NCBI RefSeq assembly: GCF_000148725.1
Contig: NZ_GL476320.1
Span: forward strand, 885,175 to 949,174
Direction of reading: 5' to 3'
Source: Roseibium sp. TrichSKD4
GTDB lineage: Bacteria > Pseudomonadota > Alphaproteobacteria > Rhizobiales > Stappiaceae
Length of the DNA stretch: 64,000 bases
The notes under the pieces are model-generated. The model saw nothing but the letters and a program-made list of their open reading frames with translations. It had not been told where the DNA came from and ran no database searches. Shown here piece after piece: positions 3,188 to 18,915 of this stretch (its first letter is position 1; each line of letters begins with the position of its first letter). Position numbers and translations under genes: made by a program.

Positions 3188-3643
3188 TTATTCAGGCAGG
3201 TGGGTCCCCTTGACCGTGCGAGAATGTCCTCTGAATTCGGCGATCAACTCGCCGGACTGATTGGTGATGGAAATGTCATAGATGCCGGAGCGGCCTTGAC
3301 GGGTCACTTCCTTCGCTGTGGCGGTCAGCCGGTCGCCGATACGGCCCGGCCTCAGATAGGTCACCGAGCAATGTTGGGCGACGGTCAGCTGGTTGTAGGT
3401 GTTGCAGGCAAAGGCAAAAGCACTGTCGCCAAGGGTAAAGAGATAGCCGCCGTGGCAATTGCCGTGTCCGTTGGCCATCTTTTCAGTGAGTTCCATGGAC
3501 AGGATTGCGTGACCCGGAGAGACCTGTTCGATCTTCATGCCAAGGTTCTGCGAGGCATGGTCGGTGGACCACATGGCTGCAGCGCAGGCTTCGGCAAGTT
3601 GTTGCGGTGAAAGCTCCGATGCCCTCAGATGGAGGTCGCTCAT
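3188..3643 (-). CDS. paaI: Hydroxyphenylacetyl-CoA thioesterase PaaI
   Basis: 151 residues with a single hotdog fold. The motif GHGNCHGGYLFTLGD spans residues 59-73, with the HGG turn at 64-66 and the catalytic acid D73. PaaI removes CoA from dead-end ring-hydroxylated phenylacetyl-CoA products and rescues CoA. The gene starts inside the paaG stop region (ATGA overlap at 3640-3643), showing translational coupling. Confidence 0.92.
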   Translation of the reverse strand: MSDLHLRASELSPQQLAEACAAAMWSTDHASQNLGMKIEQVSPGHAILSMELTEKMANGHGNCHGGYLFTLGDSAFAFACNTYNQLTVAQHCSVTYLRPGRIGDRLTATAKEVTRQGRSGIYDISITNQSGELIAEFRGHSRTVKGTHLPE

Positions 3644-4431
3644 TTGCCGGAAAACTCCGGTGCACGTTTTTCCAGAAATGCGGTTACGCCTTCTGCATAG
3701 TCCGCGCTGTATCCGGCCTCGCGCTGCAGATCGCGCTCCAGATCCAGCTGTTGGTCTAGCGTTTGGCAGGCGGCTTTCTGGATGGCCCGCTTTGTCAGGC
3801 CATAACCTTTGGTCGGGCCGACCGCAAACTTGGCAGCTTGTTCGCGTGCGGTTTCCAGCAAAGCGTCATCCTCAACAGCCTTCCAGATCAGGCCCCAGTT
3901 TTCGGCCTGCTCGGCAAAGACGGGCTCGCCGGTGAGGGCGAGAGCCTTGGCGCGGGCTTCGCCAATCAGACGGGCAAGGTGCCAGCTGCCGCCCGCGTCC
4001 GGCACAAGGCCCAGCTTGCAGAAGGCCTGAATGAAGCGGGCAGACTTGGCGGCAAACACCATGTCACAAGCAAAGGCGACATTGGCGCCGGCACCAGCGG
4101 CCACACCATTGACCGCGCAAACAATCGGCTTGCCTATGGAGCGGATCAGGCGAACGGTGGGATTGTAGAAGGTATCGAGAGTATGGCCGAGGTCAGGTAC
4201 GCCGCCCTTACGTGGGTCGCGGTCGCCAAGGTCTTGCCCTGCACAAAAGGCTCGGCCAGCGCCGGTTAGAAGAACCGAGCGTACGGTGTCGTCATCGCGG
4301 GCACGTTCAAAGGCGGCACGGAGAGCGAGGTGCATTTCATCATTGAAGGAATTCAGTTTGTCCGGGCGGTTCAAAGTGATCGTCAGGATGCCGCCATCCA
4401 GATCCGTCAAGACAGTGTCTGAAGCACTCAT
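3640..4431 (-). CDS. paaG: Epoxyphenylacetyl-CoA isomerase (crotonase family)
   Basis: The reading frame is open further upstream, but the ATG at 4431 is chosen because GGGAGAGG lies 5 bases before it and homologues begin there; this gives 263 residues. Crotonase features: AFCAGQDLGDRD (61-72, oxyanion hole), GVAAGAGANVAFACD (109-123), and VPDAGG with the catalytic Asp at 145. PaaG converts the ring-1,2-epoxide of phenylacetyl-CoA to oxepin-CoA and later shifts a double bond in the beta-oxidation steps. First gene of the paaG-paaI-paaK group. A plain enoyl-CoA hydratase (PaaF) is a less likely reading. Confidence 0.88.
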   Translation of the reverse strand: MSASDTVLTDLDGGILTITLNRPDKLNSFNDEMHLALRAAFERARDDDTVRSVLLTGAGRAFCAGQDLGDRDPRKGGVPDLGHTLDTFYNPTVRLIRSIGKPIVCAVNGVAAGAGANVAFACDMVFAAKSARFIQAFCKLGLVPDAGGSWHLARLIGEARAKALALTGEPVFAEQAENWGLIWKAVEDDALLETAREQAAKFAVGPTKGYGLTKRAIQKAACQTLDQQLDLERDLQREAGYSADYAEGVTAFLEKRAPEFSGK

Positions 4432-4490
4432 GAACCTCTCCCGCGTTGGTTCTGGCCACTTGTGAAATGACCCGTTCTTTTGACAAGTAT

Positions 4491-4515
4491 TTACATAGAC
4501 CGAACGGTCAGTCAA
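4491..4515 (-). promoter_or_regulatory. paaG promoter with TetR-type operator in the spacer
   Basis: On the minus strand TTGACT (4515-4510) can serve as -35, followed 16 bases later by TAAATA as a weak -10. The spacer carries GACCG-N2-CGGTC (4498-4509), a perfect 5-bp inverted repeat. On the minus strand it reads ACTGACCGTTCGGT, close to the ACCGACCG-N-TCGGT type box described for PaaR-like TetR proteins. Binding by the TetR protein encoded at 1176-1775 is inferred. Confidence 0.62.
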
Positions 4516-4578
4516 TTCCTTGGATTGTTCGAAACGAGGAGACCAGATCGGAGTGGAAGGCAAGCGTTTAGGAGGGGG

Positions 4579-5394
4579 CTAGACCCTCCAACTCAAGACA
4601 CGTTTCTCAACCCTCCCAACAGCAGAACTAACCAAAACCCCAAGCACCGACAGAATGACGACTCCGGCGAATAAACGGTCCAGATCGTAAAGGGACCCAG
4701 CCTGAAGGATATAGGCGCCGATGCCGTATTCTGCGCCGAGCATTTCAGCTGCGACCAGCAGAATGATAGCGATGGCCAAACTGATCCTGAGGCCGGACAA
4801 GATGCCGGGCATCGCCCCCGGCAAAACGATCTTGCGCACAATGGAGAACCAAGTGAGCCCGAAGCTTTGCCCCATCCGGATGAGCGTCCGATCAACATTG
4901 TCGACCGCACCGTAGGTGGCAACGACTGTCGGGGTGAAGGTGCCGAAGGCGATGAGGGCGTATTTGGAGCCCTCGTCAATGCCGAACCAGATTACAAAGA
5001 GGGGCAGGAGCGCGATTTTAGGGATTGGAAAGATCGCGGCAATCAGGGGAACCAGTCCGGCGCGGACGAAGGAAAACAGACCGATCAGCAGGCCGACGCC
5101 AATGCCCAATGACGCGCCAAGGGCAGCACCAATGGCAAGGCGGGACAGGGATGGCAGGAGGTTCAGGGTCAATTGGCCGGACTTGTAGAACTCGATCAGT
5201 GTCTGAATAACATCGCTTGGCTTTGGCAAGGTGAGTGCCGAAATCCCCCCTTGTCTTGTGCCGAGTTCCGCCAACCCAAGCAGGAGAACAAAAACCAAAA
5301 GGCCGATGCCGCGCCGTGTTTGCGGTTTGAAACCACCGCCGCGAAACGGCACTGGTTGCTCAGAAGATCTTTGTGCATGTGAGGTGTCAGGCAT
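4579..5394 (-). CDS. ABC transporter permease, SsuC/TauC type
   Basis: Inner-membrane permease of the nitrate/sulfonate/taurine family, 271 residues from the ATG at 5394. That start overlaps the ATPase stop by 8 bases; an upstream in-frame ATG at 5427 would overlap by 41 and is less likely. About six membrane helices are visible, with the ATPase-contact loop GQSFGLTWFSIVRKIVLPGAMPG near residues 175-200. Third gene of a binding protein - ATPase - permease operon. The substrate is not evident; nearness to phenylacetate genes suggests an aromatic or sulfonated compound, but that is only context. Confidence 0.85.
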   Translation of the reverse strand: MPDTSHAQRSSEQPVPFRGGGFKPQTRRGIGLLVFVLLLGLAELGTRQGGISALTLPKPSDVIQTLIEFYKSGQLTLNLLPSLSRLAIGAALGASLGIGVGLLIGLFSFVRAGLVPLIAAIFPIPKIALLPLFVIWFGIDEGSKYALIAFGTFTPTVVATYGAVDNVDRTLIRMGQSFGLTWFSIVRKIVLPGAMPGILSGLRISLAIAIILLVAAEMLGAEYGIGAYILQAGSLYDLDRLFAGVVILSVLGVLVSSAVGRVEKRVLSWRV

Positions 5395-6154
5395 GAAGAA
5401 GCTCCGCATCTGCTGCGCGGGCTTCATCCCGCATCAATTGCCACAAGTGGTCGTGCTTGTTCTGAAGGTCAGGATTCGATGCTATGCGTTGGTCGAGAGG
5501 GGTGTCGATTGTCACCACCTGATGAATTTGTCCGGGACGCCGGGACAAGACGACAATCTGATGCCCCAGCCGGACGGCTTCTTGCAAGTTATGGGTGACA
5601 TACACCGCTGTAAACGGTGTTCGTGTCCACAGCGAAACAAGGTCTTCCATCAGGAGATCGCGGGTCTGACTGTCGAGCGCGGAGAGCGGCTCGTCCATCA
5701 ACAAGACGGCTGGATTGACTGCGAGCGCTCTAGCGATGGCAACGCGCTGTTTCATGCCGCCTGACAATTGCTTGGGAAGAGCCTTGGCAAAGTCTGATAG
5801 CTTGGTCCGTGCCAGCACATTTTCGATAATCGCCTTTGTTTTCTCTGTAGGCAGGCGATGGTCCTCCAGCACCAGCGAGATGTTGTCTTCCACGGTGCGC
5901 CAAGGCAGGAGTGCGAAATCCTGAAAGATGTAGGTGAGGGCGTTGAGACTGCCCTCAGGGGCGGTTCCGAGCTGAAGCACATCACCTGAGGAGGGTTTCT
6001 CCAATCCTCCCATGAACCGGAGAAGAGTGGATTTACCGCAGCCTGAAGGGCCAATGATGCAAGTGATCTTGTGGGCCGGAATGGTGAGCGTGATGTCGCT
6101 CAGAACCTCCACCGCTTCATAGCGATGTCCGACCGCATTCAGGCGGATTTCCAT
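5387..6154 (-). CDS. ABC transporter ATP-binding protein, SsuB/TauB type
   Basis: 255 residues with all ABC ATPase motifs: Walker A GPSGCGKST (35-43), Q-loop YIFQDFALLPW (about 75-85), signature LSGGMKQR (130-137), Walker B VLLMDEP (150-156). The ALLPW wording after the Q-loop is typical of the SsuB/TauB/NrtD group. It energises the permease encoded immediately downstream, with which it overlaps by 8 bases. Confidence 0.92.
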   Translation of the reverse strand: MEIRLNAVGHRYEAVEVLSDITLTIPAHKITCIIGPSGCGKSTLLRFMGGLEKPSSGDVLQLGTAPEGSLNALTYIFQDFALLPWRTVEDNISLVLEDHRLPTEKTKAIIENVLARTKLSDFAKALPKQLSGGMKQRVAIARALAVNPAVLLMDEPLSALDSQTRDLLMEDLVSLWTRTPFTAVYVTHNLQEAVRLGHQIVVLSRRPGQIHQVVTIDTPLDQRIASNPDLQNKHDHLWQLMRDEARAADAELLHA

Positions 6155-6172
6155 AATGAAACTCTGTGATTG

Positions 6173-6192
6173 GGCGGGAGAAATCTCCCGCC
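6173..6192 (-). other. Intercistronic hairpin after the binding-protein gene
   Basis: A perfect 8-bp inverted repeat GGCGGGAG/CTCCCGCC with a 4-base loop lies between the periplasmic binding protein gene and the ATPase gene. There is no T-run after it, so it is more likely an RNA-stabilising or partial-attenuation hairpin that lets the binding protein be made in excess than a full terminator. Confidence 0.6.
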
Positions 6193-6213
6193 TTATGCTG
6201 TCGTGAAAGGTTG

Positions 6214-7233
6214 TTAGCCGCGTGCTTCGACAAAACTGGCGTCAACCAGTGTGTCGAGCGAAATGTGCTTGCTGACCAGATCCTCTGATTGGAACCAAGC
6301 CAACTGATCTTTGACGGACGCCATGTTAAGCGCCGCGCCCTCATTCAAGCGCATCGTCCCGTTGATGATGGACGGGGCTGCCTTTTCGCGCGGACGGTCC
6401 GCATAGACATATTTGTGAATGAGATCGACCATCTCGTTCACGCCTTCTTCGCCGCTTTGTTTTGCGATCATGGTCGCGTTGTAGTCGGCAACGCCTTTGG
6501 AAAAGCCGCCAAGGAAGTCCTTGGTGAGGGCCTTTTCATCAGCTGCGTTTTTCGCAGACGTAAACACGGTGGTCACCTGGTAATCAGGCAAGTAGTCGGC
6601 AACATTTCCGATGATGTGAACCGCGCCAGATCCGGCGAGGGGCTTGGCAATGTGTGGAACGATTGACCACGCATCGATCTGACCGGATTTCAGCGCGCCA
6701 ATGACCGCACCGACTTTTTGAAGCGGCTTGAACTTGAGGTTCGCGCCTTCTGCTGCGGCGACCTTTGAGCCCATGTAATGGAACGACGAGCCAGCGGTGG
6801 TCATGCCAAATGTTTTGCCGTCCAGCGCTGCGGGCGAGGTCAGGCCTGCCTTGAAGGCGGCATCAGAGGCGAGAATCTTTTGGCCATCAATGCCTTTTTC
6901 TTCTGACAAGGCACCGCCAATGACCTTCACCGCACCTTTGTCGGCGAGTGATATCAGGCCGCCTGAAATGGCCGTGATACCGTAGTCAACATCACCGGAT
7001 GCAATCGCAACGGCCATTGGTTGTGCTGCCTGAAAGAATTTCAGCTCCACATCCAGACCGGCGTCAGCGAAGTACCCGCGTTCGAACGCAATAAAACTGC
7101 CTGAGTGGCTTGTGAAACGTAGCGCCCCGAGAACGATCTTGCGGTTCTTGGCAATGGCCGGGGCAGGCAACGTTGCCAGTGCGGCAGCGCCACCGAGCAG
7201 ACCAAGAGCCTGACGGCGATTGAAATTGGACAT
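6214..7233 (-). CDS. ABC transporter substrate-binding protein, NMT1/SsuA-like
   Basis: 339 residues with an export signal: NRRQALGLLGGAAALATLP is twin-arginine-like, and cleavage is likely after AIA at residue 28. The mature protein has the NMT1/THI5-like fold (GALRFTSHSGSFIAFERGYFADAGLDVEL), as in nitrate, sulfonate and taurine receptors. First gene of the ABC operon, with its promoter in the 214-bp gap to the right (7234-7447), where no other gene was seen. The ligand is unknown. Confidence 0.85.
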   Translation of the reverse strand: MSNFNRRQALGLLGGAAALATLPAPAIAKNRKIVLGALRFTSHSGSFIAFERGYFADAGLDVELKFFQAAQPMAVAIASGDVDYGITAISGGLISLADKGAVKVIGGALSEEKGIDGQKILASDAAFKAGLTSPAALDGKTFGMTTAGSSFHYMGSKVAAAEGANLKFKPLQKVGAVIGALKSGQIDAWSIVPHIAKPLAGSGAVHIIGNVADYLPDYQVTTVFTSAKNAADEKALTKDFLGGFSKGVADYNATMIAKQSGEEGVNEMVDLIHKYVYADRPREKAAPSIINGTMRLNEGAALNMASVKDQLAWFQSEDLVSKHISLDTLVDASFVEARG

Positions 7234-7447: not shown

Positions 7448-8259
7448 TTATTTTGCGATCTTGTCCGCCATGACTGAAATTGTCTGAACATAGACGCTTG
7501 CCTTGTTCCACTCGCGCAACACCCGGTAGTTTGCTGTGCCCGGCCCCCAAGGCTGTCCGGCTCGCCAGCCTTTATTCTTCAGGTAATTGGCAGTCGATGC
7601 GAGAACATCGGGGATCGAGCGGATCAAGTCCCGGCGACCATCGCGATCATAATCCACCGCGTATTTCATGTAAGAGGATGCCAAAAACTGGGTTTGTCCG
7701 ATCTCGCCAGCCCATGCGCCGCGCATCTGGTTCGGGGCCATATCCCGGCGTTTGATAATCTTTAGTGCGTTCACAAGTTCGTTGGTGAAGAACTTTGAGC
7801 GGCGGCAATCATAGGCAAGAGTCGCAAGTGAGCGAATGATCGACATTCTCCCGGTGTAGCCGCCGAAATTTGTTTCCAGCCCCCAGATCGACAAAATGAC
7901 GGGCGCAGGGACGCCGTATTTTTTTCAATGCGGTTAAACAGCCGCTGATATTTTGTTTCAAGCCGCTTGGCCTTGTTGATCATCGCGTTGTTCACGCGCT
8001 TGGCATAGAACTGATTAAAAGACAGCTTGAAAGATTTCTGGTTGCGGTCCAGTCGGATCACTTTTTTGTTGTAGGTGACCCCCTTCAAGGTGGATGCAAC
8101 CATCCCTGACCGCAATCTGTATTTTGGCGCTTCTTTGATAAAGGCAGCCTTCCAAGCCTCATAACCTGAGGCGTTGTTCCCACATTTGGCAGCTTGTGCT
8201 GCACCAGTCTGAAGGAAAACGACCGCAAATACGGCCATAACAACTTTTCGCAAAAACAT
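7448..8259 (-). pseudogene. Lytic murein transglycosylase (MltB-like) split by a one-base frameshift
   Basis: Two frames together make one protein. The first (from ATG 8259) carries a signal peptide (AVFAVVFLQTGAAQAA) and the N-terminal part to LFNRIEK. The second carries LSIWGLETNFGGYTG, with the catalytic Glu of the SLT/MltB fold, and GEIGQTQFLASSYMKYAVDYDRDG. The break is at a run of seven T on the plus strand (7919-7925). With eight, the text reads IEKKYGVPAPVILSIWGLETNFG, exactly as expected, and the protein is 270 residues, a normal size. The enzyme would cleave peptidoglycan glycan strands in the periplasm. It is either a sequencing error, a true null allele, or a slippage site. Confidence 0.85.
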
Positions 8260-8361: not shown

Positions 8362-8760
8362 TTAATTGGCCAAAACTGCCGTTGCCTCGATTTCGACCAA
8401 GGCTTCGTCTTCGACCAATTCGGACACGACCAGCATTGACATGGCGGGAAAGTGTTTACCGAAATACTTTTGGTAGGCTTTACCGACCGCGCGTTGATTG
8501 TCGACATAAGTCTTCTTGTTAGTCACGAACCAGGTCAGGCGGACAACGTCAGTCGCCTTTCCTCCTGCCGCCTCGACAACTGCGATGATATTTTCAAGCG
8601 CTTGTTCCATCTGGCCAATAAAGTCATGACGTTCGAATGTCAGGTCCGCAGTCCAGCCGATTTGCCCGCCAATATAGAGTGTGCCGTCTGGTGTCAGCAT
8701 ACCGTTGGCGTAGCCTTTGGCCGGGGCCCAGCCTTCGGGCTGAATGACTTTGTGGGACAT
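8362..8760 (-). CDS. RidA/YjgF-family protein lacking the usual catalytic arginine
   Basis: 132 residues from the ATG at 8760; the 31 extra upstream codons in frame are not part of the family. The fold is a RidA trimer-type (GTLYIGGQIGWTADL, VEIEATAVLAN). The arginine that follows FPA in active RidA imine deaminases is Met107 here (FPAMSM), so classical imine hydrolysis is doubtful. It is the last gene of the kyn/abm operon, 50 bp after kynU. The pathway makes an amino-cyclohexenone-type CoA intermediate that must lose ammonia, so a role in enamine hydrolysis is a reasonable guess. Confidence 0.8.
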   Translation of the reverse strand: MSHKVIQPEGWAPAKGYANGMLTPDGTLYIGGQIGWTADLTFERHDFIGQMEQALENIIAVVEAAGGKATDVVRLTWFVTNKKTYVDNQRAVGKAYQKYFGKHFPAMSMLVVSELVEDEALVEIEATAVLAN

Positions 8761-8810
8761 GAGAGGTTTCCAGTTTGATGAAATGGGATGATCGACAGGG
8801 AGATTGACGG

Positions 8811-10022
8811 TCAGGTCACGCGTGAGCGCACTGCATATTTCGGGTCTTTCCATGCCTCTGTTTTCATGACGTCTTCCAGAATTTCTGATGCGCGAACAAC
8901 GTCTGCTTCATCCAGATAAAGTGGGGTAAAGCCGAAGCGCATGATGTTTGGCGCCCGAAAATCTCCGATCACGCTGCGGTCAATCAGGGCCTGAACAGCT
9001 TCATAGCCTTTTTCAAACTTGAAAGAGACCTGCGACCCACGTTCGGCCGCGTTGCGCGGGGAGGCAAGTGTCAGCATCGGGCATCGGCGTTCCACTTCTT
9101 GAATAAAGCGTTCAGACAGGCGAATGGAGGCTTCTCGAATATCGTCCATTGTCACGCCTTCAAACGCGTCCAAAGCTTCATCAAGTATGGAAAGCTGCAC
9201 GATGGCGGGCGTGCCGATGCGCAGCCGTTCGGTGCTCATGGCCGGGCGATAATCCAGTTCCATGGCAAAGGGGGCATCGTGACCGAGCCAGCCAGCAAGT
9301 GCAGGTTCCACTTCTTCGATAATATCTGGGCGCGCATAGATGAAGGCCGGCGCTCCGGGGCCGCCATTGAGGTATTTATAAGTGCAGCCAACGGCAAACT
9401 CAGCGTTTGAGCGCGTCAGGTCGACGGGAACGGCTCCTGCCGAATGCGCCAGATCCCAGATCATCACAGCTCCGGCCTCATGCGCTTTCTTCGTAATTGC
9501 ATCCATGTCGTGCATGCGGCCGGTTCGGTAATCAACCTGAGTGAGCATGACTGCAGCGACTTCATCGGTAATCGCGTCCGCGACTGCTTCGGGGTCCACC
9601 ACCCGCAATTCATGGTCCTTGCCGATGGTGTCGATGAGCCCGCGGGCCATATAAAGATCGGTTGGGAAATTGCCATTGTCGGACAGGATGACTTTTCGGG
9701 TTGGGCGCATGCGAAGGGCTGCAGCAACGGCCTGATAAACCTTGATGGAGAGCGTGTCGCCGGTGGCAATGGTGCCTTGCTGTGCGCCGACCAGTGGCGC
9801 GATCTTGTCGCCAACGACCTTGGGCAAGGCCATCCAGCCCGCCGTGTTCCACGCTTTTATGAGGTCTTGACCCCATTCTGCTGTGATCGTTTTTGCGGCA
9901 CGGTCTGCTGCGCCTTTTGGCAAGACGCCAAGGGAATTGCCATCCAGATAAATGACGCCGTCTGGAATTTCGAAACGGTCCTTACGCGGGAAAATACCGG
10001 CTTGAGGGATGGGGGCATTCAT
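8811..10022 (-). CDS. kynU: Kynureninase
   Basis: 403 residues, the usual length. A PLP enzyme that splits kynurenine into anthranilate and alanine. The PLP lysine is K216 in CTYKYLNGGPGAP, with D190 and H193 (MIWDLAHSAG) as cofactor partners; YLDGNSLG at 25-32 is a kynureninase hallmark. It lies 3 bases after kynA in the same operon. Its product is the substrate of the 2-aminobenzoate-CoA ligase encoded two genes upstream. Confidence 0.96.
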   Translation of the reverse strand: MNAPIPQAGIFPRKDRFEIPDGVIYLDGNSLGVLPKGAADRAAKTITAEWGQDLIKAWNTAGWMALPKVVGDKIAPLVGAQQGTIATGDTLSIKVYQAVAAALRMRPTRKVILSDNGNFPTDLYMARGLIDTIGKDHELRVVDPEAVADAITDEVAAVMLTQVDYRTGRMHDMDAITKKAHEAGAVMIWDLAHSAGAVPVDLTRSNAEFAVGCTYKYLNGGPGAPAFIYARPDIIEEVEPALAGWLGHDAPFAMELDYRPAMSTERLRIGTPAIVQLSILDEALDAFEGVTMDDIREASIRLSERFIQEVERRCPMLTLASPRNAAERGSQVSFKFEKGYEAVQALIDRSVIGDFRAPNIMRFGFTPLYLDEADVVRASEILEDVMKTEAWKDPKYAVRSRVT

Positions 10023-10025
10023 TTC

Positions 10026-10865
10026 TTATAGGTCTCCGCGTACGTGCCAAAGCTCGGGGAAGAGCTGGACGTCCAACATTTTTTTGAGGTAACTCACACC
10101 CGGCGTGCCGCCGGTGCCGCGTTTAAAGCCGATCACGCGCTCGACAGTTGTCACATGGTTGAAACGCCAGCGCCGGAAATAGTCTTCCAGATCGACCAGC
10201 TTTTCGGCCAGTTCATAGAGTTCCCAGTAGTCCGCAACATTTTCGTAGACGACTTTCCAGTGGTTTCGAATGTCTTCGTTTGCTTCGTGCGGCGCTTCCA
10301 ATTGGGGCGGCGGTGGGGCCGCACCTTCACCATCCAGCGTTCTATAAAGCAGGGTGATTGCATCGTCATAGAAACTGGGGCGCTTGAGTTCCGCTTCTAG
10401 AAGCACGGTGACGTCCGGGTCGTGAGCGTGGGATTTCAGCATGTTCGGATTGCGATTGCCGAGCACAAATTCAATCATGCGGTATTGCCAAGACTGGAAT
10501 CCGGAAGAGGGCCCGAGGGAATCTCGAAATTGGGTGTATTCGCTCGGCGTCATGGTGCGCAGAACATCCCACGCGCCATTCAACTGTTCGAAGATCCGGG
10601 CAACGCGTGTCAACATCTTGAATGCATGGGGCATGTTGCCAGCATTCATTTGCTCGCGGGCGCTCGCCAACTCATGAATGGCAAGTTTCATCCAGAGTTC
10701 ACTTGTCTGGTGCTGGATGATGAACAGCATTTCATCATGAGCATCGGAAAGCGGATGTTGCGCGGTGGTTATCGGTTCAAGATGAAGGTAGTCGCCATAG
10801 GACATGGCATCCTTGAAATCCATCTTCGCACCGGCTTTACCCGGATCATAGGCTGAGGAAGACAT
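10026..10865 (-). CDS. kynA: Tryptophan 2,3-dioxygenase
   Basis: 279 residues, typical of bacterial enzymes. It opens the indole ring of tryptophan to N-formylkynurenine using heme and O2. Visible landmarks are [12 protein letters not shown] (substrate His at 52), the heme-ligand region [16 protein letters not shown] (His 237) and the [13 protein letters not shown] substrate loop. The start overlaps the ligase stop by one base (TGATG), so translation is coupled. Confidence 0.96.
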
Positions 10866-12487
10866 CAGGCTGGGTCCTTCAGGCGGAAACGCTGGATTTT
10901 GCCGGTTGCTGTTTTCGGCAGGGTGTCGGTGAAGATGACCGAGCGGGGATATTTGTAAGGCGCAATGCTCTGTTTGACATGGTCCTGCAGCGCTTTGGTC
11001 ATAGCCTCGTCAGGCTCCAGTCCTTCCAACAGCACGACATGAGCCTGAACGATGGAGCCTCGTTCGTCGTCGGCCACTCCGATAACAGCACATTCCGCAA
11101 CAGATTCGTGCGAGAGAAGGGCGGCTTCCACTTCGGGCCCGGCAATGTTGTAGCCAGCTGAAATGATCATATCGTCATTTCGGGCGGCAAAGTGGAAATA
11201 GCCGTCCTTATCGCGCACGAATGTATCGCCCGTGACGTTCCAGCCGTTTTGAACATACTCTGTTTGACGCGCGCCGCGCAGGTAGCGGCAGCCGGTTGGG
11301 CCACGCACTGCCAATCTCCCGATTTCGCCATCGGGCAGGTCTTCACCATTGTGGCCGATAATCTTCGCCTCATAGCCGTTGACCGGTTTTCCGGTACAGG
11401 CCGGGCGATGGTCGGTAAAGCGGTTGGAGATGAAAATATGCAGCATTTCTGTTGCGCCGATCCCGTCCAGCATAGGCTTTCCGGTCTTTGCCATCCACTC
11501 GTCATAGACCGGGGCTGGCAAGGTTTCACCAGCCGAGACGGCAGCGCGTAGGGAAGATAAATCTGCACCTTCATCCATGGCCTTCATCATGGCACGGTAG
11601 GCCGTTGGCGCTGTGAAGCAGACGGTCGCCTTATATTTTTGAATAATCTCAATCATGTTGGGCGGTGTTGTCTGCTCCAGCAAGGTGGCAGCTGCCCCGA
11701 AGCGCAGCGGAAACACGGCCAGTCCGCCGAGGCCAAATGTGAAGGCGAGTGGAGGCGAGCCGACGAACACGTCCTCAGACTGCACGTTGAGCACTTCTTT
11801 CGCATACCCGTCTGCAATGATGAGCAAATCGCGGTGGAAATGCATGGTGGCTTTTGGGATACCCGTTGAGCCAGAGGTAAAGCCAAGCAGCGCGACATCG
11901 TCTTGCGCCGTTTTTACCGCATCGAAACGAACCGGTTTTCCAGTGCAAGACGGTCCAGTTCGGCATCGTGGTTGGACGTTCGTCGAAGCCGACAACTGTA
12001 TTAAAAAGGGGCTGTCTTTCGCGCAGGCCGCCATTTCGTCCATCAACCGCGTATCACACAGCGCGTGAGTGATTTCGGCCAGCTCGACATATTTGGTGAG
12101 CTCGGCGGCGCGCAGCATTGGCATCGTGTTGACCACCACGGCACCCGCTTTTGTGGCGGCCAGCCAACAGGCCACCATGGCCGGATTGTTGGCTGAGCGG
12201 ATGAGGACACGATTTCCGGGTTTGACGCCCAAATCATCAACCAGCGCATGGGCGAGCCGATTGGTCCAGTCCGTCAGTTCCTTGTAGGTTCTGCGACGAC
12301 CATTTCCGATCAGCGCCGTGTGGTCACCAAAACCTTTTTCCACCGTCGCATCGGTCAGTTCTACCGCTGCATTCAGCATCTCCGGATACTCAAAATGACC
12401 GAGTTTCAAGTCTGGCCATGTGTCAAAGGCAGGCAGGTTGTCACGGGCAAATGTATCAATATGGGCTGACGGCGTGAGCATGTTCAT
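10865..12487 (-). CDS. 2-aminobenzoate (anthranilate)-CoA ligase, with a garbled 60-base segment
   Basis: 540 residues of the benzoate-CoA ligase group; P-loop [15 protein letters not shown] (200-214), motifs [13 protein letters not shown] and [12 protein letters not shown]. It makes 2-aminobenzoyl-CoA from the anthranilate released by KynU. Residues 163-182 (11942-12001) do not look like the family. Adding one base at each of three short repeats turns this stretch into [20 protein letters not shown], which does. The net change is three bases, so the overall frame survives. A 4-base ATGA overlap links it to the acyl-CoA dehydrogenase gene. The substrate follows from operon context; benzoate is the alternative. 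Confidence 0.85.
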
Positions 12488-13647
12488 TCTCCCTGGAACG
12501 CACCAAGCGTTTGCCTTGCAATGACGATTTTCTGAACATCGGATGCGCCTTCGTAGATCCGAAGCGCACGTATTTCGCGGTAGAGCTTTTCGACAGTTTC
12601 GCCTGACCGCACCCCATCGCCGCCATGTAATTGGACAGCTTTGTCGATCACGATTTGAGCCTGTTCGGTTGAGAAGAGCTTGGCCATGGCTGCTTCGCGG
12701 GTTACGCGCGGCGCGCCACTGTCTTTGGTCCAGGCTGCGCGATAAACCAACAGGGCTGCTGCATCCACATCAAGCGCCATGTCCGCGATATGTCCTTGAA
12801 CCATTTGCAGGGCGAAGAGCGGTTTTTCGCGGATTTCCCGTTTGACGACCCGGTCCAGTGCTTCATCGAGCGCCCGACGGGCAAAACCGAGCGCAGCGGC
12901 GGCGACTGTAGAACGGAATACATCCAGAACGGACATGGCGATCTTGAAGCCCGCACCGCGTTTACCAATCAGATTTGAAGCCGGGATACGGCAATCTGTG
13001 AAACGCAGTGTTGCAAGTGGGTGCGGGGCGATTGTGTCCAATCGCTCGACCACCTCAAGGCCCGGCGTGTCTGCGGGAACAATGAAAGTCGACAAGCCTT
13101 TTGCCCCCGGCGCTTCACCTGTTCTTGCAAACACCGTGTAGACGTCAGCAATGCCGCCATTTGAGATCCAGGTTTTTTCGCCATTCAAAAGGAAGTCGTC
13201 ACCGTCAACGGTCGCGGTCATTGTGCTACTGGCGACATCCGAGCCGGAATGCGGTTCGGTCAAGGCAAAAGCGGCAATGGCTTTTCCCTGACGTGTGAGC
13301 GGCAGCCAGTCCGCCTTTTGGGTGAGCGTACCAAACAGGGAAATGGCGCCGGTGCCGAGCCCTTGCATGGCGAAGGCAAAATCCGCCAAACCATCATGGC
13401 GAGCAAGCGTTTCGCGGATCAGGCAAAGGGAGCGAACATCAAGCGGAAAGTCGCTGTTCGGTTCGACACCGGAGTAGGTCAGATAGCCGCCATGACCCAG
13501 TATGGTCACAAGCTCTCGACAAGCAGCTTCGGTGTCCGAGTGATCGACCGATCCAAGATTGCGTGTCGCCCAATCTTCCAGATCGTTCTGGAGCCGACGG
13601 TGCCGGTCTTCGAAAAACGGCCAATTGAGGTAGCTTGTGTCAGCCAT
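12484..13647 (-). CDS. Acyl-CoA dehydrogenase of the 2-aminobenzoyl-CoA pathway
   Basis: 387 residues with standard FAD acyl-CoA dehydrogenase signatures: [14 protein letters not shown] (128-140) and, near the C-terminus, LHGGDGV and [16 protein letters not shown]. It probably oxidises a cyclic or ring-opened CoA ester made after the flavin monooxygenase/reductase step. It is embedded between the CoA ligase and the enoyl-CoA hydratase with start/stop overlaps on both sides. The precise substrate cannot be read from sequence. Confidence 0.87.
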
Positions 13648-14453
13648 CAGTTGCCCTCAAAAACCGGACGTCTTTTGGCAACAAAAGCCTCATAGGCGCT
13701 CTTGAAGTCTTGCGTTTGCATGCACAGGGCCTGTGCCTGCGCTTCAGCTTCAATGGCTTGTTCGATGGACATGGACCATTCCTGATTGAGCATGGTCTTG
13801 GTCATCATGTTGGCAAAGCCCGGGCCTTCCGCGATCCTCAGCGCCAACTCGGTTGCCACGCCATCCAGTTCGCCAGTCTCAACCAGCCGATTGAAAAAGC
13901 CCCAATTCAGCCCTTCTGTGGCGGACATGGATCTACCGAGATAGAGCAGTTCTGCCGCACGGCCCTGTCCGATGATGCGAGGTAGGATGGCGCAGGCCCC
14001 CATATCACATCCGGCCAAACCAACCCGATTAAACAGGAAGGCGACCTTGGCATCTGGCGCAGCAATACGCAGATCAGAGGCCATCGCGATAATGGCTCCA
14101 GCACCGGCACAAACACCTTCTACCGCTGCAATGATGGGCTTTCCGCAATTCATCATCGCCTTGACCAGATCACCAGTCATGCGGGTGAAGGTGAGAAGCT
14201 CTTTGGTGGTCATGTCCACCAAGGGTCCGATAATGTCGTGCACGTCTCCGCCGGAGCAGAAGTTGCCGCCATTGGAGCCAAAGATGACGACCTTCACGTC
14301 ATCGGCATAATGCAGGTCCCGGAACCAGTCCCGTAGCTCTGCATAGCTTTCGAAGGTCAGCGGGTTTTTTCGATCGGACCTGTTTAGGGAAATACGGGCA
14401 ATTCCGTCGGAAATCGTGCAGTTAAAGTGCTTTACATCTGAATGCATGGTCAT
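13647..14453 (-). CDS. Enoyl-CoA hydratase/isomerase family protein
   Basis: 268 residues of the crotonase fold: [11 protein letters not shown] (about 64-74) and [15 protein letters not shown] (about 113-127) form the oxyanion hole. It is expected to hydrate or hydrolytically open a CoA-ester intermediate in the anthranilyl-CoA pathway. It overlaps the dehydrogenase gene by one base and the marR gene by four. Related crotonases can also open rings, so ring cleavage is possible but not shown. Confidence 0.85.
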
Positions 14454-14920
14454 CCCCGCTTGCCCTCAAGGCTGTCGGTGAGTGTGTCGAGCCGTTTGAT
14501 CATCCCGAGCGTGTCGTCTTCGGTCAGATCAGAAAGGAGATTGTCGATCCATTTTTCATGGGCAGCTGCATGTTCTGCAAAGGCGGTTCGTCCGGCGTCC
14601 GTCAGCTGAACGAGGGACGCACGGCGATCACCGGGCACGGCCACCCGTTCGGCCAGTCCTTCTTGTGCCAGCCGATCAACGATCCCGGTGATGTTGCCAT
14701 TGGAGACGCGGAGCAATTCAGAGATAGCACTCATTTTGAGGCCGTCGGGATAACGATAAAGCGCTGACATGACATCGAAACGGGGCAGGGTCGAACTGAA
14801 ATCTTCCCGCAGTTTGCGTCGCAATTCGTCTTCAATACGGCTGCTTGCTTTCAAGAGCTTCAACCAGAGACGAAGCCGCGTTTTGGAAAGTGGTTCAGTA
14901 TCCGAAGTCGGTTTGTCCAT
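14450..14920 (-). CDS. MarR-family regulator inside the kyn/abm operon
   Basis: 156 residues from the ATG at 14920, preceded by GGAGGAGAG and lying 2 bases after the SDR stop; an upstream in-frame ATG inside the SDR gene is rejected. The winged helix is clear ([39 protein letters not shown]). Regulators of this group often sense aromatic acyl-CoA esters. The palindrome TTTCAAGATTGAAA in the abmA/kynB promoter region (18028-18041) is its best candidate target. Confidence 0.87.
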
Positions 14921-14922
14921 CG

Positions 14923-15663
14923 TCAAATCTCTCCTCCGGATAGGGCCAGTGCGTGGCCATTGACAGACCTTGCGGCATCTGAACACAGCCAAAGAGCCGT
15001 TCCGGCGACCTCATCAGTCTGAATAAAACGGTTCTGCGGATTGTTTTTCTTCAAAGCTGCTTCAGCGTCATCATTGCTCATGCCTGTCTTTGCGACAATG
15101 GTGTTGATCGACCGGGTCAGCATCGGGGTTTCAATAAACCCCGGGCAAATCGCATTGGCGGTGACGCCGCTGGTACCCAGTTCAATTGCAACTGATCGGG
15201 TCAGCCCGACCACGGCATGTTTGGCGGCAACATAGCCGGACACATAAGGATAGCCCTTCAGACCGGCGGTTGACGCAACAGCGATTAACCGACCCCAGCC
15301 GCCGGCTTTCATGCTGGGCAGGGTCGCTTGCCACAAGTTGAAGACGCCTGTCAGGTTGACGGCGAGCATCTTGTTGAGATCATCAAAAGACATTTTGGAG
15401 AACGGAACACTTTCCGCTGCACCTGCGTTGGCGATGGCAACATCCACGGGACCATGATGCTCAATTGCGGCCTGAACGGCGGATTGAACCTGTTCAACAG
15501 AGGTCACGTCGCAGACTTGATAGGCGTGTCCCTGGGCCTTCAGCTTTTCCTCGTTGCGCCCGAATATCGTGACCTTGGCACCAGTTTGGGCAAAGTCCCT
15601 GGCGATTTCAGCGCCAACGCCTGAGCCTCCGCCGGTGATGATGATGTGCTTGTCGGTCAGCAT
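14923..15663 (-). CDS. SDR-family dehydrogenase (probable 3-hydroxyacyl-CoA dehydrogenase)
   Basis: 246 residues, classical short-chain dehydrogenase/reductase. The NAD(P)-binding motif TGGGSGVG is at 10-17, with the catalytic set S131, Y144 and K148 (GYVAAKHA). Within this operon it probably oxidises a hydroxyacyl-CoA intermediate formed after hydratase action. The start overlaps the abmA stop by one base. Confidence 0.86.
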   Translation of the reverse strand: MLTDKHIIITGGGSGVGAEIARDFAQTGAKVTIFGRNEEKLKAQGHAYQVCDVTSVEQVQSAVQAAIEHHGPVDVAIANAGAAESVPFSKMSFDDLNKMLAVNLTGVFNLWQATLPSMKAGGWGRLIAVASTAGLKGYPYVSGYVAAKHAVVGLTRSVAIELGTSGVTANAICPGFIETPMLTRSINTIVAKTGMSNDDAEAALKKNNPQNRFIQTDEVAGTALWLCSDAARSVNGHALALSGGEI

Positions 15664-17960
15664 CAGACTTTCACCACGGTTTCAGCTTCACGATCTGCAA
15701 GGCGCCAAGCCTGATCCCGTCCCGCCAGATATGGAAGCGGCCAAGCTTCATGACGGTCGCCGATCTTGGCTCCTTCATGCATGGTCCAATAGGGGTTGGC
15801 GAGATGCGTGCGGCCAACACAAACAAGGTCTGCGCGCCCGGCCATCAGGATAGAGTTTGCATGGTCAGCCTCGTAGATGTTGCCGACTGCCATTGTTTTG
15901 ATCCCGGCCTCGTTGCGAATGCGGTCCGAGAACGGTGTCTGGAACATCCGCCCATAAACGGGCTTGGCGTCAATGGTGGTTTGTCCTGCGGAAACATCGA
16001 TAATGTCTGCGCCCGCCGATTCAAACATTTTTGCGATTTGCACCGCTTCTTCCGGGGTTACACCATCGCTACCGACCCAATCGTTGGCCGAGATGCGCAC
16101 CGACATCGGCTTGTTTGCAGGCCAGACGGCGCGCATGGCTTCAAACACTTCCAGCGGATAGCGCATCCGGTTTTCCAGCGAGCCGCCATAGTCATCCGTG
16201 CGTGTGTTGGAAACGGGGGTGATGAAGGATGAAATCAGATACCCATGCGCGGCATGGAGCTCGATCATATCGAAACCGGCTCGGTCGGCCATTTCGGCTG
16301 AGGCCGCAAATTGCGCCTTGATCGCCTGCATGTCTTCAACCGAGAGTTCCCACGGAATAGCATTGTCCGAAGACCATGGAATGGCGGAGGCGGAGACAAG
16401 TTCCCAATTGCCGTCGGCCAGCGGCTTATCCATGCCTTGCCAGCCGATATTGGTCGAACCTTTTCGTCCGGAATGGCCGATCTGACAGCAAATCTTTGCT
16501 GCCGTTTCGGCATGAACAAAGTTGGTCAGGCGCTTCCAAGCCGCTTCATGTTCTGGAGCGTAAAGCCCCGGACATCCCGGCGTGATGCGACCGGTTGGTG
16601 AAACGCAAGTCATTTCCGTATAGACGAGACCTGCGCCGCCCTTTGCCCGCTCGCCGTAGTGGATCAAATGCCAGTCCGTCGGGCACCCGTCGACCGCCTT
16701 GTATTGGGCCATGGGAGAGACCACGATGCGGTTCTTCAGCTCCATGTCGCGCAGCTTGAAGGGGGCGAACATCGGCGCTCTGGTTGGTCCGTTGGTCGGT
16801 GCGCCCGCCGTTTCCTGAAACCATTTTTCTGCAGAGGACAGCCAGTTGGCATCGCGCAACCGCAAGTTTTCGTGGCTGATGCGCTGGGAGCGAGTTAGCA
16901 GGGAATAGTTGAACTGAACGGGATCAAGATCGAGATAGCGTTCAACTTCCTCAAACCACTCCAGCGAGTTGCGGGCCGCTGACTGCAAGCGCAAGACTTC
17001 CAGACGCCGCTCTTCCTGATAGCGCTCGAAGGCCGCTTCCAGCGTGTCTTCGGAATGAAGGTAATCGGCAAGGGCGATGGCACTGTCGAAGGCGAGACGC
17101 GAGCCTGAGCCGATGGAAAAATGTGCGGTTGCAGAGGCATCCCCCAGCAGGACGACATTCTCGTGATACCAACGCTCACACAGCACCCGCGGGAAGTTCA
17201 TCCAGACGGCGGACCCGCGCAAATGCGCGGCGTTGGACATCAGCTCATGTCCGCCAAGGTGGTCAGCAAAGACCTGTTCGCAAGTGGCGATGGTCTCTTC
17301 CTTGGACATCGTCTCATAGCCGACTTTGTCCCATGTCTCCTGCGAGCACTCCACAATGAATGTCGCTGTGTCGGCATCGAATTGGTAGACATGCGCCCAG
17401 ATCCAACCGTGCTCGGTTTTCTCGAAGATGAACGTGAAAGCGTCGTCAAATTTCTGGTGTGTTCCAAGCCAGACAAACTTGCATTTGCGCACGTCGATTT
17501 CCGGCTTGAAATGCTCGGCGTATTGTGTGCGCACGCGAGAATTGATGCCATCGCAGGCAATCACGAGGTCATAGTCTTTCTTGTAAGTCTCTACATCCTC
17601 GAACTCGGTTTCAAAGCGCATATCAACACCGAGTTCACGTGCGCGCTCCTGCAGGAGAATCAACATTTGCTTGCGGCCTATGCCCGCAAACCCATGGCCC
17701 CCGGAGACGGTCCGCACACCGTCGTGCACCACTGCGAGATCGTCCCAATAGGCAAAATGGCTGCGAATGGCTTCAGCGCTTTTCGGATCGTTTTGGGCGA
17801 GATTGTCGAGCGCGTCGTCGGACAGAACCACGCCCCAGCCAAAGGTGTCGTTGGCCCGGTTGCGCTCGATCACAACCACTTCGTGGTTCGGATCACGTAG
17901 TTTCATGGAAATTGCGAAATAGAGGCCAGCAGGTCCTCCGCCCAGACAGGCAATGCGCAT
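15663..17960 (-). CDS. abmA: 2-aminobenzoyl-CoA monooxygenase/reductase (bifunctional flavoenzyme)
   Basis: 765 residues with two flavin modules. The N-terminal ~390 residues are an FAD aromatic hydroxylase: GGGPAGLYFAIS (7-18) and VVLLGDASATAHFSIGSG. The C-terminal part is an old-yellow-enzyme-type FMN reductase: MFAPFKLRDMELKNRIV, HSGRKGS, HAAHGYLISSFITP, NTRTDDYGGSLENRMRYPLE. This fusion is the hallmark of the enzyme known from Azoarcus evansii, which hydroxylates and then reduces the ring of 2-aminobenzoyl-CoA. It is first in the operon, downstream of a strong promoter. Salicylyl-CoA 5-hydroxylase is a close relative, but the kyn context favours 2-aminobenzoyl-CoA. Confidence 0.93.
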   Translation of the reverse strand: MRIACLGGGPAGLYFAISMKLRDPNHEVVVIERNRANDTFGWGVVLSDDALDNLAQNDPKSAEAIRSHFAYWDDLAVVHDGVRTVSGGHGFAGIGRKQMLILLQERARELGVDMRFETEFEDVETYKKDYDLVIACDGINSRVRTQYAEHFKPEIDVRKCKFVWLGTHQKFDDAFTFIFEKTEHGWIWAHVYQFDADTATFIVECSQETWDKVGYETMSKEETIATCEQVFADHLGGHELMSNAAHLRGSAVWMNFPRVLCERWYHENVVLLGDASATAHFSIGSGSRLAFDSAIALADYLHSEDTLEAAFERYQEERRLEVLRLQSAARNSLEWFEEVERYLDLDPVQFNYSLLTRSQRISHENLRLRDANWLSSAEKWFQETAGAPTNGPTRAPMFAPFKLRDMELKNRIVVSPMAQYKAVDGCPTDWHLIHYGERAKGGAGLVYTEMTCVSPTGRITPGCPGLYAPEHEAAWKRLTNFVHAETAAKICCQIGHSGRKGSTNIGWQGMDKPLADGNWELVSASAIPWSSDNAIPWELSVEDMQAIKAQFAASAEMADRAGFDMIELHAAHGYLISSFITPVSNTRTDDYGGSLENRMRYPLEVFEAMRAVWPANKPMSVRISANDWVGSDGVTPEEAVQIAKMFESAGADIIDVSAGQTTIDAKPVYGRMFQTPFSDRIRNEAGIKTMAVGNIYEADHANSILMAGRADLVCVGRTHLANPYWTMHEGAKIGDRHEAWPLPYLAGRDQAWRLADREAETVVKV

Positions 17961-18004
17961 GGTCCAATCTCCTCCAGGTCCATTCCATCTTGTCGATATC
18001 GGAG

Positions 18005-18041
18005 AGTATATGCTTCATGTTTAAATGTTTCAAGATTGAAA
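18005..18041 (-). promoter_or_regulatory. abmA promoter and overlapping palindromic operator
   Basis: On the minus strand TTGAAA (18033-18028) and TATACT (18010-18005) are separated by exactly 17 bases, a near-consensus housekeeping promoter for the abm/kyn operon. The -35 box is one arm of TTTCAA-GA-TTGAAA (18028-18041), a perfect 6-bp inverted repeat, with two further matched pairs outside a single mismatch. The other arm points toward kynB. This is the layout expected for a MarR-type repressor covering divergent promoters; the regulator encoded at 14450-14920 is the likely ligand. Confidence 0.75.
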
Positions 18042-18096
18042 TATCGCAATTGCGTCTATATCGTTCTATGGCTTGAAGGAGCGGGCAGGAGGCAAC

Positions 18097-18915
18097 ATGA
18101 CTGACATGACCAGGATTGACTGGGACGATGCGTTTTCCAACGGGTCCTATATTGAGGGAGCCGAGGCATATGTTGATCATTGGGCCAGCAAGGCTGCCGC
18201 CTTTCGGGCAAGTCACCCATTGGCAAAACTGGATGTTCCCTATGGGGCTGGTGACCGGCAACGGCTGGATCTGTTCTTGCCCGAAGCGCCCCCAAAAGGC
18301 CTCGCGGTTTTCGTTCACGGTGGCTACTGGCTGAAGTTTGACAAATTATGGTGGTCGCATCTGGCTGGCGGGGCGCTTAGTCGTGGCTGGGCCGTTGCAC
18401 TGCCAAGTTACAACCTCGCGCCAAAGGCCCGGATTTCGGACATCACTAAGGATGTTGGTGCGGCAATCTGCAAAGCTGCCTCGCTGGTCCACGGACCGAT
18501 CCATTTGTCGGGGCATTCAGCCGGTGGTCATCTTGTCAGCCGAATGGCATGCGAAACCGGGCCCTTGCCCCAAGATGTTCAAGATCGGCTCAAACGGGTC
18601 GTCTCCATCAGCGGGTTGCATCACCTTGAGCCTCTTATGTTGACCGATATGAACGCTGATTTACGGCTGGATGGCGATGAAGCCCGCGCTGAAAGCGCAG
18701 CGCTGCTTGACCCGGTGTCAGGTGTTGAAACCATCTGCTGGGTCGGCGCACAGGAGCGCCCCGAATTCCTGCGCCAGAACCGTCTTCTGGAAGAACGCTG
18801 GTCACGAAAAGGCGCAACCATTTCCGCCGTCTACGATCCCGGAAAGCACCATTTCAACGTGATCAACGGACTGGCTGATCCGGACAGCGCACTGACACGG
18901 GCATTTGTGGGTTAG
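18097..18915 (+). CDS. kynB: Kynurenine formamidase, alpha/beta-hydrolase (AFMID-like) type
   Basis: 272 residues from the ATG at 18097, which has AGGAGG 4 bases upstream. The oxyanion motif HGGYW is at 74-78, the nucleophile S141 in GHSAGG, and the probable catalytic His at 251/252 (PGKHHFN). HGGYW is typical of the animal- and yeast-like arylformamidases, not the metal-dependent bacterial KynB family, so the symbol is used by function only. It hydrolyses N-formylkynurenine from KynA to kynurenine for KynU. It is transcribed away from abmA. A general esterase is the alternative; the context argues strongly for the formamidase. Confidence 0.85.
   Translation: MTDMTRIDWDDAFSNGSYIEGAEAYVDHWASKAAAFRASHPLAKLDVPYGAGDRQRLDLFLPEAPPKGLAVFVHGGYWLKFDKLWWSHLAGGALSRGWAVALPSYNLAPKARISDITKDVGAAICKAASLVHGPIHLSGHSAGGHLVSRMACETGPLPQDVQDRLKRVVSISGLHHLEPLMLTDMNADLRLDGDEARAESAALLDPVSGVETICWVGAQERPEFLRQNRLLEERWSRKGATISAVYDPGKHHFNVINGLADPDSALTRAFVG

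Follow-up and report, generated by a model that had tools for sequence, protein, structure and literature searches.

A methionine-type Rid protein as a candidate nitrogen-release enzyme in a tryptophan and 2-aminobenzoyl-CoA gene cluster of Roseibium sp. TrichSKD4

Phaeobacter inhibens reportedly converts tryptophan through kynurenine to 2-aminobenzoate (anthranilate), which is then degraded as in Azoarcus evansii. In A. evansii, the route through 2-aminobenzoyl-coenzyme A (2-aminobenzoyl-CoA) is established, and the reactions of the ligase and of AbmA have been shown, as summarized in a review (PMC4539516); the study of P. inhibens by Drueppel et al. (2014) covered tryptophan (PMC5653290). 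Tryptophan breakdown via anthraniloyl-CoA monooxygenase/reductase is among the pathways that one genome-annotation effort omitted because too little was known about them (PMC9007349). Here, we analyzed a stretch of 64,000 nucleotides from Roseibium sp. TrichSKD4 (hereafter, the window), which carries an abm–kyn gene cluster ending in a gene of the Rid family. We consider it highly probable that this locus forms one catabolic unit, in which tryptophan would be converted to anthranilate and broken down in CoA-bound form, with ammonia released by a Rid protein that has methionine in place of a key arginine (Met-type Rid) and with control by a MarR-family regulator. The pathway is already known; the Rid gene is the informative part. 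The original prediction, made from the sequence alone, listed this gene but missed both points. We also lean, with some reserve, towards the view that the Met-type Rid is a distinct enamine deaminase dedicated to CoA thioesters. Such an enzyme would provide the nitrogen-release step of the pathway across a range from proteobacteria to actinobacteria, perhaps including haloarchaea, and by its presence anthranilate clusters could be told apart from the salicylate clusters with which they share one database name.

Nine intact open frames occupy positions 17960 to 8362 of the minus strand, in the order abmA (15663–17960), a short-chain dehydrogenase/reductase (SDR) gene of the abm core (14923–15663; PF13561/PF00106), marR (14450–14920; PF12802/PF01047), a crotonase-fold enzyme gene (13647–14453), an acyl-CoA dehydrogenase gene (12484–13647; PF00441, PF02770), a putative 2-aminobenzoate (anthranilate)-CoA ligase gene (10865–12487), kynA for tryptophan 2,3-dioxygenase (10026–10865), kynU for kynureninase (8811–10022) and the Rid gene (8362–8760). 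An alpha/beta hydrolase frame on the plus strand (18097–18915), also intact, is divergent from abmA. From abmA onward, the junctions are an overlap of 1, a gap of 2, overlaps of 4, 1, 4 and 1, and gaps of 3 and 50 bases; thus five of the eight junctions are overlaps of 1–4 bases, two are gaps of 2–3 bases, and kynU and Rid are 50 bases apart. The co-directional gene set with mostly 1–4 base overlaps described in the original prediction was accordingly recovered at the stated place; the Rid frame listed as 8362–8853 more likely starts at 8760. The starts of Rid (8760), marR (14920) and the hydrolase gene (18097) are refined positions that reflect our choice of start codon.

As in A. evansii, a CoA ligase and a bifunctional flavoenzyme are followed by beta-oxidation-type enzymes (here the SDR, the crotonase and the acyl-CoA dehydrogenase, encoded next to abmA), whereas the window differs in joining kynA and kynU in one operon and in having Rid as part of the unit. 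The locus is nonetheless an ordinary representative of an already known type, in which the kynurenine route is combined with the Azoarcus-type 2-aminobenzoyl-CoA route: the kyn–abm fusion for which the original prediction had proposed a genome survey was also found on plasmids of Sagittula stellata E-37 and Thalassospira marina, which share abmA, SDR, marR, crotonase, acyl-CoA dehydrogenase, ligase, kynA/kynU and Rid with the window. Both differ from the window in a thioesterase gene before Rid; in Thalassospira kynU and kynA are swapped, and in Sagittula the gene divergent from abmA encodes an acyl-CoA dehydrogenase instead of the hydrolase. In Ruegeria pomeroyi, kynA and a hydrolase gene are divergent from abmA, and in Paracoccus and Phyllobacterium the abm part has transporter genes nearby. 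Plasmid pAL1 of Arthrobacter Rue61a, which serves quinaldine breakdown, resembles the window in its ligase, AbmA and Rid; unlike the window, it has small cupin, FAH-family and thioesterase genes and PaaX-type regulators, and no crotonase of the NF006107 group was found in that locus.

A scan of a species-genome collection returned at least 593 relatives, of which the best 80 (61–82% identity) were kept, and each gene in the relative loci was labelled by means of a single query protein, under score limits that we set. The window AbmA is 72–82% identical to six alphaproteobacterial relatives and 49–55% identical to four more distant ones, the best named matches being roseobacters at 82%. Among the 48 loci with nearly full flanks (at least 21.2 kb), MarR was present in 48, the crotonase in 47, the SDR in 46, the acyl-CoA dehydrogenase in 44, the ligase in 40 and Rid in 32, followed by thioesterase (22), kynA (16), kynU (9) and the hydrolase (9). 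The abm gene set is conserved well beyond chance.

AbmA exceeds the cut-off of NF006101 (1298.7 bits against 1078) and contains both flavin domains (FAD_binding_3 and Oxidored_FMN), as in the two-domain FAD/FMN enzyme of the Azoarcus-type pathway. Both kynA (PF03301, 243.7 bits) and kynU (TIGR01814, 282.2 bits, cut-off 246.4) of the kynurenine route to anthranilate exceed their cut-offs and belong to the operon, and the closest solved protein to the ligase is the anthranilate-CoA ligase 4wv3 (E = 2.7e-83), by a small margin over benzoate ligases (3.8e-79). In a sample of 244 genomes drawn evenly from the order of Planktotalea arctica, kynA (PF03301) was found in 101 of the 106 genomes with AbmA and in 49 of the 138 without it (odds ratio 37, with kinship not taken into account). 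Because of this association, the kinship of the ligase and the lack of a gentisate dioxygenase gene in the operon, tryptophan breakdown via 2-aminobenzoyl-CoA, as originally predicted, is supported as the best reading of these gene assignments. The title of the original prediction stops at anthraniloyl-CoA, whereas the locus encodes several later steps as well. As regards the predicted avoidance of free catechol, among the 50 best-scoring of the 106 AbmA genomes, which are not a random draw, anthranilate 1,2-dioxygenase exceeded the cut-off in none (eight had weaker matches, perhaps to other ring dioxygenases), and catechol 1,2-dioxygenase exceeded it in four, with any match at the limit in 15.

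Several points must be set against this reading. The scores of kynA (TIGR03036, 388.4 bits, cut-off 390.7, a shortfall of 2.3 bits) and the ligase (TIGR02262, 369.7 bits, cut-off 375.25) are slightly under the curated cut-offs, although PF03301 is well over its own for kynA, and Pfam and solved relatives back both assignments. The hydrolase, which the original prediction called an AFMID-like formamidase, is indeed divergent and has a Drosophila kynurenine formamidase (4e11, E = 2.5e-13) among its best solved relatives, together with a putative esterase (2pbl) and a lipase (9n8r); however, NCBIfam files it under lipase family NF058665 (382.6 bits, cut-off 320), and N-formylkynurenine is therefore only a putative substrate, although the solved relatives and the shared operator described below make it a probable kynurenine formamidase. 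Co-occurrence gave no hint of this specificity among the 244 genomes, 212 of which have hydrolase homologues, far more than have AbmA. In addition, one study saw no growth of Cupriavidus metallidurans CH34 on anthranilate, despite the abm and kyn genes of this strain (PMC8879955).

NCBIfam names NF006101 after salicylyl-CoA 5-hydroxylase, which is a further point against the tryptophan reading and would fit an alternative in which the AbmA-like enzyme acts on salicylyl-CoA and the locus degrades salicylate via gentisate. Such a pairing is seen elsewhere: two of 97 labelled loci (L008, 14387–16533, and L155, 7611–12508) carry an AbmA-like gene together with one resembling gentisate dioxygenase (TIGR02272, 312 and 306 bits, under the cut-off of 442) and with FAH-family genes, and both are without Rid. 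These two are likely a salicylyl-CoA/gentisate variant under the same NCBI name, judging from their gene content. In the AbmA tree, however, their two enzymes pair together (support 1.0) away from the window AbmA, and by family assignments none of the ten genes of the window unit encodes gentisate 1,2-dioxygenase. The salicylate reading was rejected for this locus on that ground and on the presence of kynA and kynU in the operon; with the ligase closest to an anthranilate-CoA ligase, we consider it very improbable. Rid was present in 68 of the 97 labelled loci, none of which has a gentisate-dioxygenase-like gene, a contrast that is thin, with only two gentisate-type loci. If the proposed Rid step is correct, the name salicylyl-CoA 5-hydroxylase could be corrected where it does not fit.

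The kinship of the ligase with 4wv3, which presumably comes from a biosynthetic pathway, would also agree with an operon that makes anthraniloyl-CoA as a building block rather than as food. AbmA and the acyl-CoA dehydrogenase would, however, consume this compound, no synthase gene is present in the operon, and a branched-chain-type transporter binding protein is encoded in 26 of the 80 best relative loci (of at least 593), so that a biosynthetic role is hardly credible.

We return to the tryptophan reading and to the Rid protein (PF01042), which has Met where RidA has the carboxylate-binding Arg105. In 58 abm-linked Rid frames, four of which were read by eye, this residue was Met in 57 and Leu in one haloarchaeal frame. 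In an alignment of 67 abm-linked rows, which represent 62 distinct genes as five were counted twice, Met was found in 66, Leu in one and Arg in none, whereas 18 of 25 other Rid proteins had Arg; in a tree of the same sequences, the abm-linked proteins formed one clade (support 0.99). As a control, 30 of the 46 Rid-family matches in six genomes were used, and the six with Met were all beside abmA. One of these six adjoins a second abmA that was found later. The other 24 control proteins, after removal of duplicates, had Arg (19), Ala (2), Asn (1), Trp (1) or Ser (1); the two alignments differ by one Arg (19/24 and 18/25), with one protein added. By inspection, the glutamate of the EIEA motif, which we take to be Glu120, was kept in all 58 Rid rows. 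Ordinary RidA shares the PF01042 family and this glutamate, which is important for its function, and needs Arg105 to hold the substrate carboxylate (PMC4433059). The window protein differs in having Met instead of Arg105 and in being tied to AbmA rather than to pyridoxal-phosphate (PLP) enzymes, and a substrate whose carboxyl group is masked by CoA would fit the loss of the carboxylate-binding Arg.

The occurrence of Rid follows that of AbmA closely. With the window Rid as the query (E ≤ 1e-22), a close homologue was found in exactly the 106 of 244 genomes of the order sample that have AbmA, with no discordant genome, and in a phylum sample of 299 genomes (E ≤ 1e-18) AbmA was found in 41, Rid in 41 and both in 40. 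These counts are not independent owing to shared descent, the limits for Rid, AbmA and the crotonase were set after the scores had been seen, and a close homologue is defined by score only, the Met not having been read in each. One of the two discordant genomes does carry abmA, which the AbmA search missed; the other, without a Rid match, combines FAH-family and thioesterase genes with genes for an AbmA-like enzyme and for a cupin resembling gentisate dioxygenase (TIGR02272, 306 bits, cut-off 442). The crotonase was found in 39 of the 299 genomes, namely 38 AbmA genomes and the one with the missed abmA, and three AbmA genomes lacked it at that limit.

This agreement is striking, as just 84 of the 106 genomes have the two genes no more than 20 kb apart. 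In the other 22, all of which were examined, Rid and abmA are separated by a greater distance or are on different contigs. Ten of these Rid genes stand alone with respect to the gene set (in stretches of 3 kb for seven and 18–19 kb for three), and each has shortly upstream a site matching 11–13 of the 14 positions of the operator described below; for two of them (L157 and L160), the site was placed from the printed position, as the script misjudged their starts. Shuffled upstream regions reach a score of 11 or more in 0.5% of cases. Therefore, Rid seems to have been kept under the same apparent control after leaving abmA, although the ten cases look related and few events may lie behind them. 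The remaining 12 genes end an operon, preceded in the same orientation by transporter, thioesterase, ligase or kyn genes; for 11 of them the best site within 250 bases upstream scores 9 or less, and for the twelfth there is none of 11 or more within 11 kb. In two genomes (G042 and G191), one stop codon was reported within the matched Rid stretch, yet the Rid frames of L169 and L170 score well.

Rid also accompanies abm genes of different later content. Five loci (L009, L010, L179, L180 and L184), actinobacterial apart from one of Rhizobium, are of the anthranilate type and pair Rid with genes for a small cupin and an FAH-family protein but lack the crotonase; their first steps would be shared with the other loci, and the later ones perhaps differ. 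Two of these loci adjoin quinaldine or quinolone genes, and quinaldine breakdown yields anthranilate (PMC3534580). Rid therefore goes with an amino substrate rather than with one later pathway. A haloarchaeal plasmid (L011, 9366–22356) encodes an AbmA-like FAD monooxygenase, a benzoate-type ligase, the Rid with Leu at the Arg105 position, an acyl-CoA dehydrogenase, an SDR and a crotonase, and the abm operon of Ruegeria contains a small cupin gene (L003, 19279–19731) that has no NCBIfam family and has relatives in several other abm loci.

From these observations, the following course of events may be proposed. KynA, the divergent hydrolase and KynU would convert tryptophan to anthranilate and alanine, and the ligase would form 2-aminobenzoyl-CoA, which AbmA would hydroxylate and reduce to 2-amino-5-oxocyclohex-1-ene-1-carbonyl-CoA, a reaction established for the Azoarcus enzyme. 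The Met-type Rid is the proposed deaminase of this enamine, and would hydrolyze it to ammonia and 2,5-dioxocyclohexane-1-carbonyl-CoA, a beta-keto thioester whose ring the crotonase might then open. The SDR and the acyl-CoA dehydrogenase, with a FadJ-like enzyme and a thiolase that are encoded beside the abm genes in some relatives, could complete a beta-oxidation-like finish, for which the order of steps is tentative. The crotonase belongs to the NF006107/PRK08258 group (471.1 bits, cut-off 330) and has Ile and Arg at the places aligned with the two catalytic glutamates of hydratases, presumably E144 and E164 of the rat enzyme; these glutamates were placed by motifs in an alignment that contained no canonical hydratase. 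An Asp aligned with that of PaaG is kept in its GCDMG motif. The plain hydratase of the original prediction is thus doubtful on these residues, both glutamates being replaced, and a ring hydrolase or isomerase is predicted instead.

Against a deaminase role, an Arg105 to Ala exchange nearly abolished imine hydrolysis in ordinary RidA (PMC4433059), and therefore the Met-type protein may be no deaminase. In the same direction, none of the six Rid-family genes examined (of 14) in one Pseudovibrio genome is Met-type, and 16 of the 48 loci with nearly full flanks gave no Rid match within about 10 kb. Twelve of these 16 contain a branched-chain-type transporter gene, which may push Rid beyond the locus edge.

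Two other roles for Rid were considered. It might be a guard that removes stray enamines or imines, such as those arising from kynureninase, in the way that RidA acts on 2-aminoacrylate, since guarding is the described role of RidA (PMC4433059) and Rid adjoins kynU, which encodes a PLP enzyme. However, the Arg that ordinary RidA needs is gone, and Rid tracks AbmA rather than kynA: the five AbmA genomes without kynA still have a close Rid homologue, whereas the 138 genomes without AbmA, 49 of which have kynA, have none at the limit. Rid is also present in abm loci of Paracoccus and Phyllobacterium without kyn genes in the stretch shown, and beside the quinaldine and quinolone genes. We thus regard guarding as unlikely, if worth keeping in mind. 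Alternatively, the Met-type Rid could act later, on a ring-opened amino intermediate rather than on the cyclic enamine, as Rid-family 2-aminomuconate deaminases act after ring opening elsewhere (PMC6449761, PMC7118221). In Arthrobacter, where activity of the ligase was shown, the CoA ester of an acid C7H8O4, the formula of the deaminated ring, was reported only in anthranilate-grown cells, and the authors suggested that it might be cyclohexanedione-carboxyl-CoA (PMC3534580). Together with the presence of Rid in loci with quite different later genes, this makes later action rather doubtful.

Deamination of the cyclic enamine by Rid, if true, would explain the role of the Rid group without Arg105, and one small protein and one assay would close part of the gap after AbmA. 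Our literature search, in which most subscription papers were outside coverage, found no paper linking Rid to the 2-aminobenzoyl-CoA pathway. Rid-family genes have been proposed in other aromatic regulons (PMC6449761), so that a part for Rid in the breakdown of aromatic compounds is not in itself a new idea.

The unit also appears to be under common control. A palindrome, ATTTCAANNTTGAAAT, lies between the divergent abmA and hydrolase genes and recurs upstream of abmA in relatives. This operator (GTTTCAAGATTGAAAT, 18027–18042), a probable MarR site, is 66 nucleotides from the abmA start and 54 nucleotides from the hydrolase start, and its two half-sites reach into the –35 hexamers of promoter-like sites in opposite orientations, one for the abm–kyn operon (18005–18033, minus strand; TTGAAA, 17 nucleotides, TATACT; 10/12 consensus positions) and one for the hydrolase gene (18036–18064, plus strand; TTGAAA, 17 nucleotides, TATCGT; 9/12). 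Promoter and terminator scans gave matches in the region that were no commoner than in shuffled sequences. The pattern TTTCAA-N(1–3)-TTGAAA was found, with 10 or more of its 12 positions matched, within 300 bases upstream of abmA in 63 of 85 loci, compared with about 1.8 in mononucleotide shuffles. The pattern was derived from the window, which is itself one of the 85 regions counted, and related loci are not independent; seven of 92 abmA loci had been dropped as their start was not found by the script. With a spacer of 2, 31 of the 84 loci other than the window reach at least 11 of 12 matches. When 400 random AT-rich half-sites were subjected to the same test, two were TTTCAA itself (31 each), TTTTAA reached 15, and the others reached at most 3.

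In 1.84 Mb, 76 sites with at least 12 of 14 matches were found, of which the rule of the script assigned 58 to abmA, 6 to further genes of the set and 12 to other places; among the 18 not assigned to abmA, six or more (in L025, L032, L045 twice, L060 and L072) directly precede an abmA match. In split clusters, the operator lies before kynA (L066) or between the hydrolase gene and marR (L086). The palindrome is present at both putative target promoters, as for a MarR-type local regulon. We infer that MarR binds the palindrome over both –35 boxes and represses both divergent promoters; repression would be relieved by an intermediate, perhaps 2-aminobenzoyl-CoA. The single regulon of the original prediction thereby gains a conserved palindrome common to the divergent promoters, and the operator offers a ready means of finding the remaining regulon members. 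A full-text literature search for TTTCAAGCTTGAAA returned no paper. Further operator-like sites in the window, at 9010 (in kynU) and 17497 (in abmA) with 12 of 14 matches and at 4334, 6147 and 10804 with 11 of 14, were taken as chance.

Scans of the window for tRNA genes and Rfam families gave no match. Beyond the Rid end of the operon, on the minus strand at 7448–8259, two overlapping frames in different phases both match transglycosylase domain PF13406 (profile positions 93–209 and 3–83), which points to either a gene disrupted by a frame change or a sequence error at this place. Farther along the same strand (3640–7233) are genes for an NMT1-type ABC transporter (binding protein, ATPase and permease), with just one weak operator-like site, that at 6147, and for a second crotonase, which is 32% identical to that of the operon and has, by our reading, a PaaG-like motif.

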